64,000 nucleotides of DNA. Source: Syntrophomonadaceae bacterium (GTDB lineage Bacteria > Bacillota > Dethiobacteria > DTU022 > UBA8154). Of the stretch, positions 3,020 to 59,755 are shown one piece after another. Each line of letters starts with the position of its first letter. Positions within the stretch are counted from its first letter, which is position 1. The translations under genes and the position numbers were made by a program. The stretch spans positions 1 to 64,000 of the forward strand of contig PWRN01000020.1 of assembly GCA_003556225.1 (NCBI GenBank). Direction: 5' to 3'. The notes under the pieces are model-generated. The model was not told the DNA's origin. It worked only from the letters and a program-made list of their open reading frames with translations, and did not search any database.

Positions 3020-3105
3020 TGTCCAAAGCGTTCTCCTGATGGTTAGTGATAGGTTTCCATGGTTATTTACCAGGACCTCGTATTTTGATATAAAGGGGTG
3101 ATTGA

Positions 3106-3390
3106 GTGGGACGTTCGGTAAAGAAAGGCCCGTTTGTTGACCAGAGATTAAAGGCCAGAATCGACAAGATGAATAAAACGGGAGAAAAACGCGTGATCAA
3201 GACCTGGTCCCGTCGTTCTACCATATTCCCGGATATGGTTGGGCATACGATAGCCGTCCATGATGGACGAAAACATGTCCCCATCTATATTTCCGAGGAT
3301 ATGGTGGGGCATAAACTCGGAGAATTTTCACCAACGCGCACGTTTCGCGGCCACGGATCTCACACGGAACGGTCGACTTCTCTCAAGTAG
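3106..3390 (+). CDS. rpsS: 30S ribosomal protein S19
   Basis: This 94-residue protein starts at a GTG ([15 protein letters not shown]) behind AAAGGGGTG. The conserved C-terminal segment [14 protein letters not shown] is present. S19 forms a complex with S13 in the 30S head and contacts tRNA and the intersubunit bridge. It is separated from rplV by about 95 bases with no other gene. Confidence 0.96.
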
Positions 3391-3485
3391 GTAGCAGGAA
3401 TGGGCTGCTTGTTGTTGAGGTGTTACGGCCACTTTCGATGGGTTTCATTATTTACTGCGGTGCATGAGGTAAGGGGGTATAAGAT

Positions 3486-3827
3486 GTGGAAGCAAAAGCA
3501 CAAGCCCGTTTTATTCGGATAGCTCCCCGCAAAGCACGGATCGTGATGGATTTGATCAGGGGAAAAGGCGTTGACGAAGCTCTTTCCATCCTTCGTTTTA
3601 CACCCAAGAGGGCATCATCCATCATTGAAAAGGTGTTGAATTCAGCGATAGCTAACGCTGAACACAACTACGAGATGAAGCGTGAGGATCTTTATATCGA
3701 CAAAGGTTATGTCGATGAAGGACCTACGTTAAGGCGTTTCAGGCCACGGGCCATGGGAAGAGCTAGCCGTATAAACAAGCGTACCAGTCATATAACCGTT
3801 GTTATACGGGAAAGAGAGGAGGATTAA
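3486..3827 (+). CDS. rplV: 50S ribosomal protein L22
   Basis: The gene encodes 113 residues from a GTG start ([20 protein letters not shown]) after an AAGGGGG site. An ATG two bases upstream is out of frame. The long hairpin region [20 protein letters not shown] lines the exit tunnel in known ribosomes and is the site of macrolide resistance changes in other species. The rpsC start follows after three bases. Confidence 0.96.
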
Positions 3828-11680: not shown

Positions 11681-11968
11681 GTGGAACTGGGGCAGCTGAT
11701 TAAATCCCTGGCGGGACGGGATAAAGGAAAGCACTATCTCGTAGTTGGCTTTGAAGGCCGGCGTGTTTTACTATCCGATGGACAGTTTCGGCCGGTAAAC
11801 CGGCCCAAGAGAAAAAATGTAAAGCATTTGCAACCTTATCGTTGTATATCACCCGAAATCCAAGCTGAGGCTCAAAATAATGCTCTAAGAGACACAACGA
11901 TTAGAAATGTACTGAATTCGCTGCTCGCTGCTGGAAACGGACAGAAAAACAAGGAGAACGGTAGTTAA
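11681..11968 (+). CDS. KOW-domain RNA-binding protein (L14e-like)
   Basis: A small basic protein of 95 residues from a GTG start behind GGGAGGAAG. Its N-terminal half ([20 protein letters not shown]) matches the KOW-domain proteins found between map and infA in many Firmicutes, which resemble archaeal/eukaryal L14e. By that family it probably binds RNA or ribosomes; the exact role is not known to me. The C-terminal 40 residues are low in recognisable motifs. Confidence 0.85.
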
Positions 11969-54625: not shown

Positions 54626-54722
54626 GTGTGGAGATCTAACCTGTGGGATGAACCCGTGTTACTCTGAGCCGGTTTGTTTTGCTGACTGCTGACTGCATGG
54701 AGAAGAAACAGGAGGTTTATAA

Positions 54723-55622
54723 ATGTCCCATGAAGATGATATACAAGCCCTGACACGTTTGATGGCAGATTTCACGGCTTTCATTGGTAAACGCCTTCCC
54801 GATGACGTGGTCGCGAAACTGCAGGCGCTGAGGGACCAAGAGCAAAAGGACCTCTCCAAAGTGGTCTATGACTCCATGTTCGAAAATCTGGCGCAAGCCA
54901 TTGCCCTGAACCGGCCTGCCTGCCAGGATACAGGGGTGATCAATTATTTCATCAAGGCGGGGGCCAATTTTCCCTACCTGGCCCGGCTGCAGAATATCCT
55001 GGTGCAGGCTGTAAAAACGGCCACCGTGGAAGCTCCCTTGCGGCACAACGCCGTGGAAATCTTTGAGGAGATCAACACGGGGGACAATACCGGTGAGCGG
55101 GCGCCGTTTATTCACTGGGATATCATCAATGACGGCGATGAAGTAGAAATAGAAGTCTACATGGCGGGGGGTGGATGCAGCCTCCCGGGTAGGGCGATTA
55201 CATTGATGCCTTCGGCGGGTTATGAGGGGGTCGTGGATTTTGTATTTGACACCATTGTTAACTGGGGCATTAACGCCTGCCCTCCCCTGCTGGTGGGAGT
55301 GGGGATCGCAGGATCGGTTGAAAATGCGGCGCTCCTGTCCAAGAAGGCCATCTTACGCCCGATCGGTTCCTCCCACCCCAACCTAAAAGGTGCCGCCCTG
55401 GAGAAGCGCCTGGAGCAGGGTTTAAATGAACTGGGTCTGGGACCCCAGGGTCTCTCGGGAAGCGCTACGGTTTTGGGTGTGCACATTGAATCTGCGGCCC
55501 GGCACCCCTCCACCATTTCCGCGGCGATTAATATTGGCTGCTGGGCCCATCGGCGAGGCACTATACGAATCAAAGGGGACTTATCGCATGAAATCATTTC
55601 CCACCGGGAGGTAGCGCTGTGA
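54723..55622 (+). CDS. ttdA: Tartrate/fumarate dehydratase subunit alpha
   Basis: This encodes 299 residues of the class I (iron-sulfur) hydro-lyase family. Cluster cysteines are seen in [17 protein letters not shown] and [14 protein letters not shown]. With the beta subunit it would dehydrate L-tartrate to oxaloacetate or fumarate/malate. E. coli TtdA is about 303 residues. ATG 54723 follows AGGAGG. It overlaps the beta gene by four bases. Confidence 0.85.
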
Positions 55623-56224
55623 AAAAAATCCTGAACACCCCCATTAAAGCTGAGGATCTCGCAGGGATCCAGATCGGAGACGTGATCTATCTCACCGGAC
55701 ACCTGGTCACATGTCGCGACGTGGCCCACCGCAGGCTAATCGAGCGGGGTATGGAGCTGCCCGTCGATCTCCGCGGCCTGGCGATATTCCACGCCGGACC
55801 TATTGTCAAAAAAGATCATGAAAGGTACGTCATGGTTTCCATCGGCCCTACGACCAGCATGCGGATGGAAAAGTTCGAAAAGGAGTTTATCGCCAGAACC
55901 GGGGTGAAAGTCGTGATCGGAAAAGGTGGAATGGGGCCCAGGACAGCCGAAGCATGTAAGGAACACCAGGCGATTCACTGCGTGTTTCCGGGAGGCTGCG
56001 CGGTACTGGCGGCCACGGAAGTGGAGGAAATTGAAGGGGTGGAATGGATGGAACTGGGCATGCCGGAATCCCTCTGGATCTGCAGGGTAAAAGAGTTCGG
56101 TCCTTTGATCGTTTCCATCGACACGGCAGGGAACAACCTCTTCGAGATCAATAAAGAAGTCTTCCGTGAGCGCAAAGATCGCATCGTCGCAGAGATCTCT
56201 CGCGAAGTGGGCTTTATTCAATAG
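55619..56224 (+). CDS. ttdB: Tartrate/fumarate dehydratase subunit beta
   Basis: The protein has 201 residues, the same length as E. coli TtdB. Motifs are [34 protein letters not shown] and [15 protein letters not shown]. The IFHAGPIV form resembles tartrate dehydratase more than fumarase beta chains (typically YYVGPT), so tartrate or a similar acid is favoured. The start overlaps ttdA by ATGA-like coupling. Confidence 0.85.
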
Positions 56225-56304
56225 TGGGAACCTGGCCCGCTCCGGCATGTTCGTTTGCGATTCATGCAGCCGATTTCTTGCCGGGCGGACACGCTTTTCT
56301 TAAC

Positions 56305-56365
56305 AACAACCCACCCTGTCCAGGTTGAAAGAACGTCGCATCAGACCTGGAGGGTTGGGTTGTTT
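56305..56365 (+). terminator. Long hairpin after ttdB
   Basis: AACAACCCACCCTGTCCAGGT pairs imperfectly with ACCTGGAGGGTTGGGTTGTT around a 17-base loop. Only a short T-run follows, so termination efficiency is uncertain. Confidence 0.55.
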
Positions 56366-56400
56366 GCATTCAAGCACATGAGTAGAGTCAGAAGAGCCCT

Positions 56401-56421
56401 ATTGAGAGAAAGATTCTCAAT
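56401..56421. promoter_or_regulatory. 21-bp palindrome upstream of mrp
   Basis: ATTGAGA and TCTCAAT are perfect complements separated by seven bases. It lies about 70 bases upstream of the mrp -35 box and could bind a metal or redox regulator; no family is assigned. Confidence 0.45.
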
Positions 56422-56488
56422 TTCATACTAAATGAAAATATCACGGCGTAAACTGTTCCTCAAGGGCAAAAATGGGGATCAATTTTAT

Positions 56489-56518
56489 TTGACAAATGCT
56501 CAATAAATATACTATGAT
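56489..56518 (+). promoter_or_regulatory. Promoter for mrp
   Basis: TTGACA at 56489-56494 and TATGAT at 56513-56518 are 18 bases apart, about 90 bases before the mrp start. Confidence 0.7.
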
Positions 56519-56606
56519 CAATTTGGACATAAGACCATAACTGTGCGGCCGGCAAATGTGTGCAAAATCTTTCTTGATCATGTGATAGAAAGGGGTATCA
56601 GCCGGG

Positions 56607-57416
56607 ATGAGTTCAGAGAAACCGTCATCAGAAAAAGGAAAGAAGGAAATTCCAAAAGTAATGCGTTTCGACATTAAACATGTTATCGCTGTGATGAGTG
56701 GAAAGGGTGGCGTGGGTAAATCCTCGATTACCGCCCTGCTGGCTGTTGGCGCACGCAAGCAGGGTTTCAGCAGCGGGGTGCTGGATGCGGATATAACCGG
56801 GCCAAGTATTCCCAAGATGTTTGGATTGAAAAAATATGACCATGGGCAGCGATTTGCCCCGGCGGAAAGTTCACTGGGGATCAAAATCATGTCCCTGAAC
56901 TTGCTGCTTTTAAATGAGGATGACCCGGTGATCTGGAGAGGTCCGCTCATCGGCAGAGCAGTCGGACAATTCTGGGGAGATGTTGATTGGGGAGACCTGG
57001 ACTATCTGTTTATTGATTTGCCTCCAGGAACAGCAGATGCTCCGTTAACTGTCATGCAGACCATCCCTTTAGATGGTCTGGTGATCGTGAGTTCACCCCA
57101 GGGTTTAGCCGTAATGGTTGTGAAAAAAGCGCTGAAGATGGCGCGATCGATGAATGTTCCGGTCCTGGGCCTGGTGGAAAACATGAGCTATTTTGCCTGC
57201 CCGCAATGTCAGGCCAAGGTGGAAATATTCGGTTCTTTAAAAGGAGAAAAGGTCGCCAGGGCCACAGGCGTGCCTTACCTGGGAAACCTTCCCCTGGATC
57301 CAAACCTGGCAGGTTGCTGTGACAGCGGCAGGATAGAAAGCTACAACAGCGACCTTTTTCTCAAGCTGTTAAACTGCCAGCAGCAGATAAAGGGAAAGGA
57401 AAACGTGATCCCATAG
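56607..57416 (+). CDS. Mrp/NBP35-family iron-sulfur carrier ATPase
   Basis: The 269-residue P-loop protein has the deviant Walker A GKGGVGKSS, switch motif DADITGPSIPKMFG, DLPPGTADAPLTVMQ and the cluster cysteines in ACPQCQAK. Mrp proteins bind and transfer Fe-S clusters. There is no N-terminal MIP18-like domain. It has its own promoter and is followed by a small glycine/tyrosine-rich protein, an arrangement common in Clostridia. Confidence 0.92.
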   Translation: MSSEKPSSEKGKKEIPKVMRFDIKHVIAVMSGKGGVGKSSITALLAVGARKQGFSSGVLDADITGPSIPKMFGLKKYDHGQRFAPAESSLGIKIMSLNLLLLNEDDPVIWRGPLIGRAVGQFWGDVDWGDLDYLFIDLPPGTADAPLTVMQTIPLDGLVIVSSPQGLAVMVVKKALKMARSMNVPVLGLVENMSYFACPQCQAKVEIFGSLKGEKVARATGVPYLGNLPLDPNLAGCCDSGRIESYNSDLFLKLLNCQQQIKGKENVIP

Positions 57417-57540
57417 CCTTTACCCGCGGTTCAACGCGATAGGTTTACCTCCAACCTGCCCTGTCCCTGTCCCTGTTCATGTATCCAACTTTCTAAAAAT
57501 CTGATTCAGGCGATTTAATCAGAGAAAGGAGGGAATGACA

Positions 57541-57840
57541 GTGCCAAGAGGTAGATACTGGTATGGTCCTGGTTTCTGGAAACGAGACACAAACTGGGTG
57601 CCTGGAAGCGGTGGTTTCCGAGGCGGTGCGTATTACCGCGGAGGCCCGGGCACGTTTCGCCCGCATGGTTGGGGCTGGGGCCCATGTTACTGGTTTCATG
57701 GCGGATATGCCGTTTTCCCGCCCGTCATGTATGATCTGGAAACCAACGAAGCCGATGATTTGAAGGATCAAGCTAACGCAATCAAGGCTGAAAAGCAAAA
57801 AATAGAAAGCAGGCTGGCTGAACTGGAAGAAAAGCAGTAG
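57541..57840 (+). CDS. DUF5320-like small protein
   Basis: There are 99 residues from GTG 57541 (MPRGRYWYGPGFWKRD), seven bases after AAAGGAGGG. The N-terminal 60 residues are rich in Gly, Tyr and Trp; the last 35 form a charged coiled coil (DLKDQANAIKAEKQKIESRL). The layout resembles DUF5320 proteins that accompany Mrp and NifB/NifX-type genes. Upstream is a (CCCTGT)3 tandem repeat at 57459-57476. Function unknown. Confidence 0.7.
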   Translation: MPRGRYWYGPGFWKRDTNWVPGSGGFRGGAYYRGGPGTFRPHGWGWGPCYWFHGGYAVFPPVMYDLETNEADDLKDQANAIKAEKQKIESRLAELEEKQ

Positions 57841-57878
57841 AATCAGTCACCATCATCCAGCGGCAAAGCAGGCAGTTG

Positions 57879-57909
57879 AGGGTGTCCTAAACACCCTTTC
57901 TTTTTTTTA
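57879..57909 (+). terminator. Hairpin terminator
   Basis: AGGGTGT pairs with ACACCCT around CCTAA and is followed by TTCTTTTTTTT. It ends the mrp-DUF5320 transcript. Confidence 0.85.
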
Positions 57910-58032
57910 GTATGACGTACATTTGTTTTCGGGAACCGCCGTGATTGCATTCCTGAAAGCTCTGCAGGAGAAGGATGTTGTCGCGTCGAAAAATCAAAAG
58001 GCCAGCAACAAGATGCAAAGGTCGGTGGGACA

Positions 58033-58569
58033 ATGCTGAAAGATTCATTGGAAGTGCTGTTTAGAAAACATGGATTTGATGATTATCGCTGGATCCGCGC
58101 GGACCAGATCCAGGTTGCCCATTGGGTGCGGTTTAAATGCATGTTCGGATGTTCCAGCTACGGGAAAAAAGGGACTTGCCCTCCCCAGGTCCCTGCGGTA
58201 GAAGAGTGCCGCGCTTTTTTTGCTGATTACAAGAAAGCGGTCCTTTTTCACCTGGCGAAAGCGGTGGAGAAGCCGGAGGATCGCGTCCCGTGGAGCAAGG
58301 AGATCAGCCGGCACTTAATCCAATTGGAAAGGGAGGTGTTCTGGTCCGGTTATCATAAGGCTTTCATGCTTTTTATGGACGAGTGCCGTTTTTGTGAAGC
58401 ATGTACGGGTACCCGGGAAAGCTGTGTGAACAAAGAAGACGCACGGCCTGGCCCGGAATCCCTGGCTGTGGATGTTTTTGCTACAGCCCGCAGCGCCGGT
58501 TATCCCCTCGAGGTGCTGCGTCACTACGATCAAACCATGAACCGCTACGCCATCCTCCTGGTGGAGTAG
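58033..58569 (+). CDS. DUF2284 metal-binding protein
   Basis: The cysteine-rich protein has 178 residues. CMFGCSSYGKKGTCPP near residue 35 and CRFCEACTGTRESC near residue 118 are the two cysteine groups of DUF2284, probably binding a metal or an Fe-S cluster. The function of the family is unknown to me. It begins the accessory stretch at 58-61 kb. Confidence 0.87.
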   Translation: MLKDSLEVLFRKHGFDDYRWIRADQIQVAHWVRFKCMFGCSSYGKKGTCPPQVPAVEECRAFFADYKKAVLFHLAKAVEKPEDRVPWSKEISRHLIQLEREVFWSGYHKAFMLFMDECRFCEACTGTRESCVNKEDARPGPESLAVDVFATARSAGYPLEVLRHYDQTMNRYAILLVE

Positions 58570-58697
58570 ACGTTTTGTCACAATAGCCCATGGCTTTGCT
58601 TATTGTTGCAATTCCGGCGCTTCTCTTGGACAAGAAACTTTTGTAGAAATCATCAAAATGATTGAACAATTTTTACAATCTGCAAGGAGATTGCGTA

Positions 58698-58781
58698 ATG
58701 TTTCTTGAATATAAGTTTATAAAGAAATTTCTAATACCATTTAACCAAGGAATAAGAAGATTGCTTGAGTTTAGATCCTAA
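58698..58781 (+). CDS. Candidate 27-residue basic small protein
   Basis: This is too short for the ORF track. AAGGAGA lies seven bases before ATG 58698, which opens 27 codons (MFLEYKFIKKFLIPFNQGIR...) to TAA 58779-58781. The peptide is basic and amphipathic. The region is AT-rich and otherwise decayed, so a chance frame or gene remnant is as likely as a real small protein. Confidence 0.3.
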   Translation: MFLEYKFIKKFLIPFNQGIRRLLEFRS

Positions 58782-58863
58782 AAGGCGGCCGAAACGTGTT
58801 TGGGGACTTTCTGCGAAGGAGGCTGCTGGGACGATGAAAGTCGAATGACGTGGAGATCATGGC

Positions 58864-59143
58864 GTGATCACCCTTCCACAGGAAGTGAATCTCATCAATG
58901 TCTCAGAGTTCAAGCAGGCAGTCCAATCGCTTAGCGACCAGGCATGCAACCCAATATATGTTGATTGCTCTCAGCTCAAAATGATAGACAGCGCCGGTCT
59001 TGGCAGCTTTGTGCTTTGCCAAAAGCAGCTGAAGAAGCAAGGCGGTGAACTGAGGCTTGCCAACGTGTAACGTGTATCATGAATATGTCAAACACCTCTT
59101 TGATATGATCGATTTAAAGAGGGTTATTAAGATTGAAGAATGA
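58864..59143 (+). pseudogene. STAS-domain anti-sigma-factor antagonist, frameshifted
   Basis: The ORF track gives 68 residues (58864-59070). Its sequence matches a STAS domain, with the phosphorylatable serine motif MIDSAGLGSFVLC. The frame stops early inside an exact 7-bp tandem duplication (AACGTGT twice). Removing one copy restores the frame through YHEYVKHLFDMIDLKRVIKIEE, a normal STAS C-terminus, to TGA 59141-59143. Such proteins switch partner anti-sigma factors. The broken allele would lack the last helix. The GTG start follows GGAG by eight bases. Confidence 0.85.
59062..59075 (+). repeat. AACGTGT tandem duplication inside the STAS gene
   Basis: Bases 59062-59068 and 59069-59075 are both AACGTGT with no gap. 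The extra seven bases shift the frame by one. Confidence 0.97.
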
Positions 59144-59233
59144 TCCCCGTAAGAATGACCCCTGCGAGAGATAAGAAAGCAGTTTTCCAGGACCCGGGTA
59201 GTTGCAGCGGGTTAACACAGGAGAAGAAGGAGG

Positions 59234-59755
59234 ATGATCCTGTTGCCGGAACAACTAACACTCTGGCCTGGTGATGAACAAAAACCGCCAGGCGTGGATA
59301 AACGCCTTCACGTGCTCAAACGGCTTGAGATTGCCCCGTTCATTCCCCACGAAGTTTTTGCACGCTATTACCAGGATACCGGAAGACCGCCATATCCCCT
59401 GGAGTCCATGCTTCTGGCTTTGCTCGCACAGGAGCTGTTTAAAATTCCTACCACGGAACTGCTCATAACCGTGCTGCGTATCTCCCCACTTTTATGCCGC
59501 TGTTGCGGTTTTCACAAAAGCATACCCGATGAATCGACCTTTCGCCGCTTTAAGCAACGACTGGGACCTGGTGTAGCCGAGCAGCTCCTGGATAAAGCAT
59601 GCCAGGAAGCCCATCGTTTGCTGGAGCAGGAGCTTTCTGTTCCTCCCCTACCCGCCGCGGTGCGTTTTCGGCGTTTCCACCAGGAAAGGGAAAATGGCGC
59701 TGTTGGCGTGCAACCACAGATTACGTATATCATGGGAACACGAGAAGAAGGCTAA
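59234..59755 (+). pseudogene. Truncated transposase, N-terminal DUF772-type part
   Basis: This encodes 173 residues. Residues 1-125 match the N-terminal domain of IS5/IS1182-type transposases (IPHEVFARYYQDTGRPPYPL, KSIPDESTFRRFKQRLG). The DDE catalytic domain is missing and the last 40 residues look out of family. No terminal inverted repeats were found, so this is a remnant. AAGGAGG precedes the ATG. Confidence 0.8.

Follow-up and report, generated by a model that had tools for sequence, protein, structure and literature searches.

The window, i.e., the whole 64-kb stretch of DNA that was analyzed, carries the disrupted remains of a gene for a STAS-domain protein. The original prediction, made from the letters alone, described this gene as switched off by an exact tandem duplication, and read it either as a very recent pseudogene or as a reversible ON/OFF switch. 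The features of the locus are as follows:

58817..58823, + strand: AAGGAGG, probably the ribosome-binding site serving the ancestral start, 10 nt before ATG 58834.
58834..59143, + strand: pseudogene of an RsbV/SpoIIAA-type anti-sigma-factor antagonist (STAS) with two disabling lesions, delimited against the intact copy at L002:1568-1870 with conserved flanking genes.
58846..58848, + strand: lesion 1, a TGA stop in frame at codon 5, against CGA in the congener (pairwise alignment with L002; profile search).
58864..59070, + strand: the 68-aa open reading frame of the original prediction, its GTG being internal codon 11; GGAG (58852-58855) lies 8 nt upstream.
59062..59075, + strand: lesion 2, the AACGTGT tandem duplication, a frame-breaking 7-bp insertion that creates the TAA at 59068-59070 (read from the sequence; single AACGTGC in L002).
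59069..59143, + strand: C-terminal end of the STAS domain, now out of frame, with the original stop codon; 20 of the 21 residues from HEYVKH on match the congener exactly (alignment of relatives).

Two adjoining AACGTGT copies are read directly in the window sequence (59062-59068 and 59069-59075), as had been reported. The description of the frames was equally accurate: the one opened by GTG 58864 runs for 68 codons to the TAA at 59068-59070, and the remainder of the domain, NVYHEYVKHLFDMIDLKRVIKIEE, follows at 59069-59140 in a different frame that closes with TGA at 59141-59143. When the restored protein was aligned to STAS domains, as the original prediction had suggested, bridging one AACGTGT copy gave a Pfam STAS (PF01740) score of 50.7 bits vs 42.7 bits for the truncated piece, and the two halves joined also matched Pfam STAS_2. 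As a bare motif, the AACGTGT pair is not more frequent than chance: the 64-kb window contains 4 such exact 7-bp pairs, and 20 mononucleotide shuffles contain 2.95 on average. Further exact 7-bp pairs in the window (TCGCTGC, TAGAGGA, and TGCTGAC), together with an exact 9-bp tandem pair, ATGATGCCC, occupy positions 11918, 26119, 54680, and 38717.

A single congener was found among the relatives searched (G001, contig PWWY01000028.1, loci L002 and L003; the genome of the window is G000). Its STAS gene is intact (100 codons encoding 100 aa), has the same neighbors as in the window, and holds just one, diverged copy (AACGTGC) at the duplication site. Because the congener has one copy at this site, the second AACGTGT in the window is a true insertion.

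The congener also relocates the start of the gene. Its coding sequence opens with ATG AAA ATC GAA CGA CGT GAA GAT CAC GGC GTG ATT, and the window reads, from 58834, ATG AAA GTC GAA TGA CGT GGA GAT CAT GGC GTG ATC. By this comparison, the natural start is placed at ATG 58834, and GTG 58864, from which the original prediction had begun the protein, now falls inside the ancestral gene; the codon-5 TGA had been missed. When the genome that contains the window was searched with profiles, the STAS match began at 58837, 5' of GTG 58864, and included one TGA and one TAA. At codon 5, window and congener show a C/T difference in a CpG context. Relative to the intact syntenic orthologue in L002, the gene thus bears two disabling lesions, the codon-5 TGA and the 7-bp insertion, which are independent of each other. 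Deleting one repeat copy does join the two halves of the domain as originally claimed, but it would not restore the ancestral protein because the stop at 58846-58848 would remain.

Just inside the STAS gene lies an inverted repeat, GATCAYGGCGTGATY (58855-58869), which is retained at the same place in L002 with changes in both arms and could be due to chance. Decoding of the codon-5 TGA as selenocysteine, which would leave the duplication as the sole disabling lesion, was considered, as G000 and G001 both encode a full-length SelB. We rejected it as having a practically negligible probability: the congener has CGA at codon 5, a position that is variable among relatives, the short GATCAYGGCGTGATY hairpin 3' of the TGA also follows this TGA-less codon in the congener, the region folds no better than shuffled sequences, and the frameshift would persist in any case.

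Over 99 aligned codons, the STAS genes of window and congener differ with a Ka of 0.069 and a Ks of 0.69, giving a Ka/Ks of 0.10 (bootstrap 0.05-0.20), near the 0.11-0.15 obtained for the adjacent genes (DUF2284, SRAP-like, and transporter). The two copies thus diverged mostly while the gene was under selection, and the lesions are therefore recent. As the DNA comes from an assembly of multiple contigs, the lesions might in principle be assembly or sequencing artefacts that mask an intact gene. This is very unlikely, as a substitution and a 7-bp insertion, unrelated to each other, would both have to be erroneous within one 310-bp gene, and four neighbor genes compared with the congener over about 790 codons contain zero frame-breaking indels, which argues against poor sequence quality.

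Several other observations concern the neighborhood. The DUF2284 gene (58033-58569) resembles the C-terminal part of the selenoproteins MbdU and ArsM-DUF2284, and the genome has SelB. Between this gene and the transporter gene, the window has about 3.3 kb (54663-58017) that is absent here in the congener (L002 703-752) and encodes a putative two-part hydratase that looks fumarase-like, an Mrp/NBP35-type ATPase, and a DUF5320-like protein. Downstream, at 59234-59755 (L002 1945-2463), a 172-173 aa open reading frame corresponds to an IS1182/IS5-type transposase reduced to its N-terminal domain (DUF772); it is single-copy and intact in both congeners (84% identical, Ka/Ks about 0.23), and the fragment seems to be kept under selection and is possibly domesticated. 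A promoter and terminator scan of 58560-59260 found none.

By domain and motif, the ancestral gene is assigned to the small stand-alone antagonists of the RsbV/SpoIIAA type. A STAS domain extends over most of its length, as seen from the PF01740 match (50.7 bits) and from the congener protein, which passes the NCBIfam model for anti-sigma factor antagonists (TIGR00377; 57.7 bits, cut-off 53.45) and aligns with the solved structures of RsbV and SpoIIAA (PDB 6m36, 1auz, and 1th8). The phosphorylatable serine is present in both window and congener within MIDSAGLGSFV, aligned with MDSTGLG of RsbV and MDSSGLG of SpoIIAA. The N-terminal segment ahead of GTG 58864 occurs in 8 of the 8 aligned relatives from the family and order.

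Among relatives in the family and order, the closest STAS orthologues adjoin a gene for a fusion of a SpoIIE-type PP2C phosphatase with an RsbW-like HATPase. For instance, in G013:C6 the PP2C domain (2386-2979) is followed by the HATPase (3091-3348) and the STAS gene (3425-3688), and similar layouts are found in G014:C37, G008:C150, G016:C8, G024:C12, and G037:C6. Near the STAS locus of G000 or G001 there is no such fusion gene, and anywhere in these two genomes we found no strong match to the SpoIIE phosphatase (PF07228) or to an RsbW/SpoIIAB-type kinase (PF13581), both of which relatives possess, nor any SigB/F/G-type sigma factor above cut-off. HATPase_c_2 has only three weaker matches in G000, located in frames 355-412 aa long and, by size only, probably belonging to sensor kinases, and none in G001; a profile search of G000 found no other STAS domains. 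Thus, a partner kinase and PP2C phosphatase were not detected in assemblies that are incomplete (90.6% for G000 and 79% for G001), such that absence there is not proof, and the partner proteins seem to have been lost in the window's genus. In having no strong SpoIIE, SpoIIAB/RsbW, or SigF/G-type match, G000 is unlike many members of its family, and from these missing matches sporulation has probably been lost in its lineage.

As its second option, the original prediction raised a reversible slipped-strand switch, in which the number of AACGTGT copies would go back and forth between one and two and so turn the STAS regulator ON and OFF. In its favor, loss of an exact tandem copy can be precise, the frame of the C-terminus carries no damage, Ka/Ks is low, and the internal GTG 58864, with its GGAG 8 nt upstream, could start a shortened protein. 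Against this, the ancestral frame is already stopped at codon 5, a stop that unit loss leaves in place, and a protein begun at GTG 58864 would be without the N-terminal segment found in all eight aligned relatives. Moreover, just two 7-bp units form a poor slippage tract, such pairs are as frequent as chance predicts (4 vs about 3 expected), the repeat is not conserved in the congener with its single diverged copy, and the genome search detected none of the partner proteins (PP2C, kinase, and sigma factor). We therefore rejected a phase switch, mainly because codon 5 is a further stop and repeats of this kind turn up as often as expected by chance, and consider it highly improbable; that specifically the shortened protein from GTG 58864 is truly phase-variable through one AACGTGT copy is even harder to credit. 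If true, it would be a switch based on one two-copy heptamer in an anti-sigma-factor antagonist. A search for the duplication site in viral contigs found nothing, as did a literature search for a link between a 7-bp duplication and phase variation.

The same internal start figures in another explanation, in which a residual functional STAS protein is made from GTG 58864 by ribosome hopping between the identical GTG codons on either side of the TAA (59065-59067 and 59072-59074), or the 68-aa fragment is itself functional. The GGAG ahead of GTG 58864 and the low Ka/Ks are consistent with such a product, but matching codons arise from any such duplication, the N-terminal segment would be missing, the fragment would also lack the last 22 or so residues of the domain, and there is no precedent in relatives, making this exceedingly improbable.

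Ordinary pseudogenization best explains the observations, namely the two lesions, a congener copy that is intact, a low Ka/Ks, and the lack of partner matches in the assembly, and we consider it highly likely that the locus is a recently inactivated, orphan anti-sigma-factor antagonist gene. Of the two options originally offered, the very recent pseudogene stands, supported by the intact one-copy congener, the Ka/Ks of about 0.10, and a second, nonsense lesion. By analogy with RsbV/SpoIIAA, phosphorylation of the DSAGLG serine would have switched the ancestral protein. The SpoIIE-type phosphatase/HATPase kinase partners seem to have been lost from the window's genus, which may have relaxed selection on the orphan STAS gene; with its partners gone, an orphan antagonist would be an expected target of decay. 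The gene would subsequently have been hit twice independently, by the nonsense change at codon 5 and by the 7-bp tandem duplication near codon 79, and the broken gene would presumably yield no functional product. Counting against this reading, the low Ka/Ks implies that the gene was under selection until recently, and G001 keeps it intact though its partners are likewise undetected; the STAS protein may have had another partner.

The locus is of little importance in itself, but it offers a clean case of the decay of a regulatory module, with partners gone or undetected and the leftover antagonist recently lost. Further, it illustrates that where a switch appears to depend on one lesion, the true start codon needs to be checked before phase variation is called.

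Reversible inactivation of a regulator is known from agr of Staphylococcus aureus, where variants arise by repeat-length change or duplication and some revert through a change in a poly(A) tract or through loss of a duplication-plus-inversion (PMC6686034); hence, the slipped-strand mechanism is a reasonable one in principle, but finds no support at this locus. The window gene resembles these agr phase variants in that a repeat-length change or duplication disables a regulatory gene, and differs from them in having two heptamer copies only and a second lesion that slippage cannot reverse. Compared with the RsbV/SpoIIAA antagonists, the congener copy has the same full-length domain and D-S-x-G-L-G phosphorylation motif; unlike them, the window copy is twice broken, kinase, phosphatase, and sigma factor partners went undetected in the genome, and the score against the SpoIIAA equivalog model TIGR02886 is below cut-off (44 vs 114.75 bits). 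With ordinary bacterial pseudogenes, the window gene shares a nonsense change and a frameshift relative to an intact syntenic orthologue, and it differs from them in nothing notable except that both of its lesions are recent.
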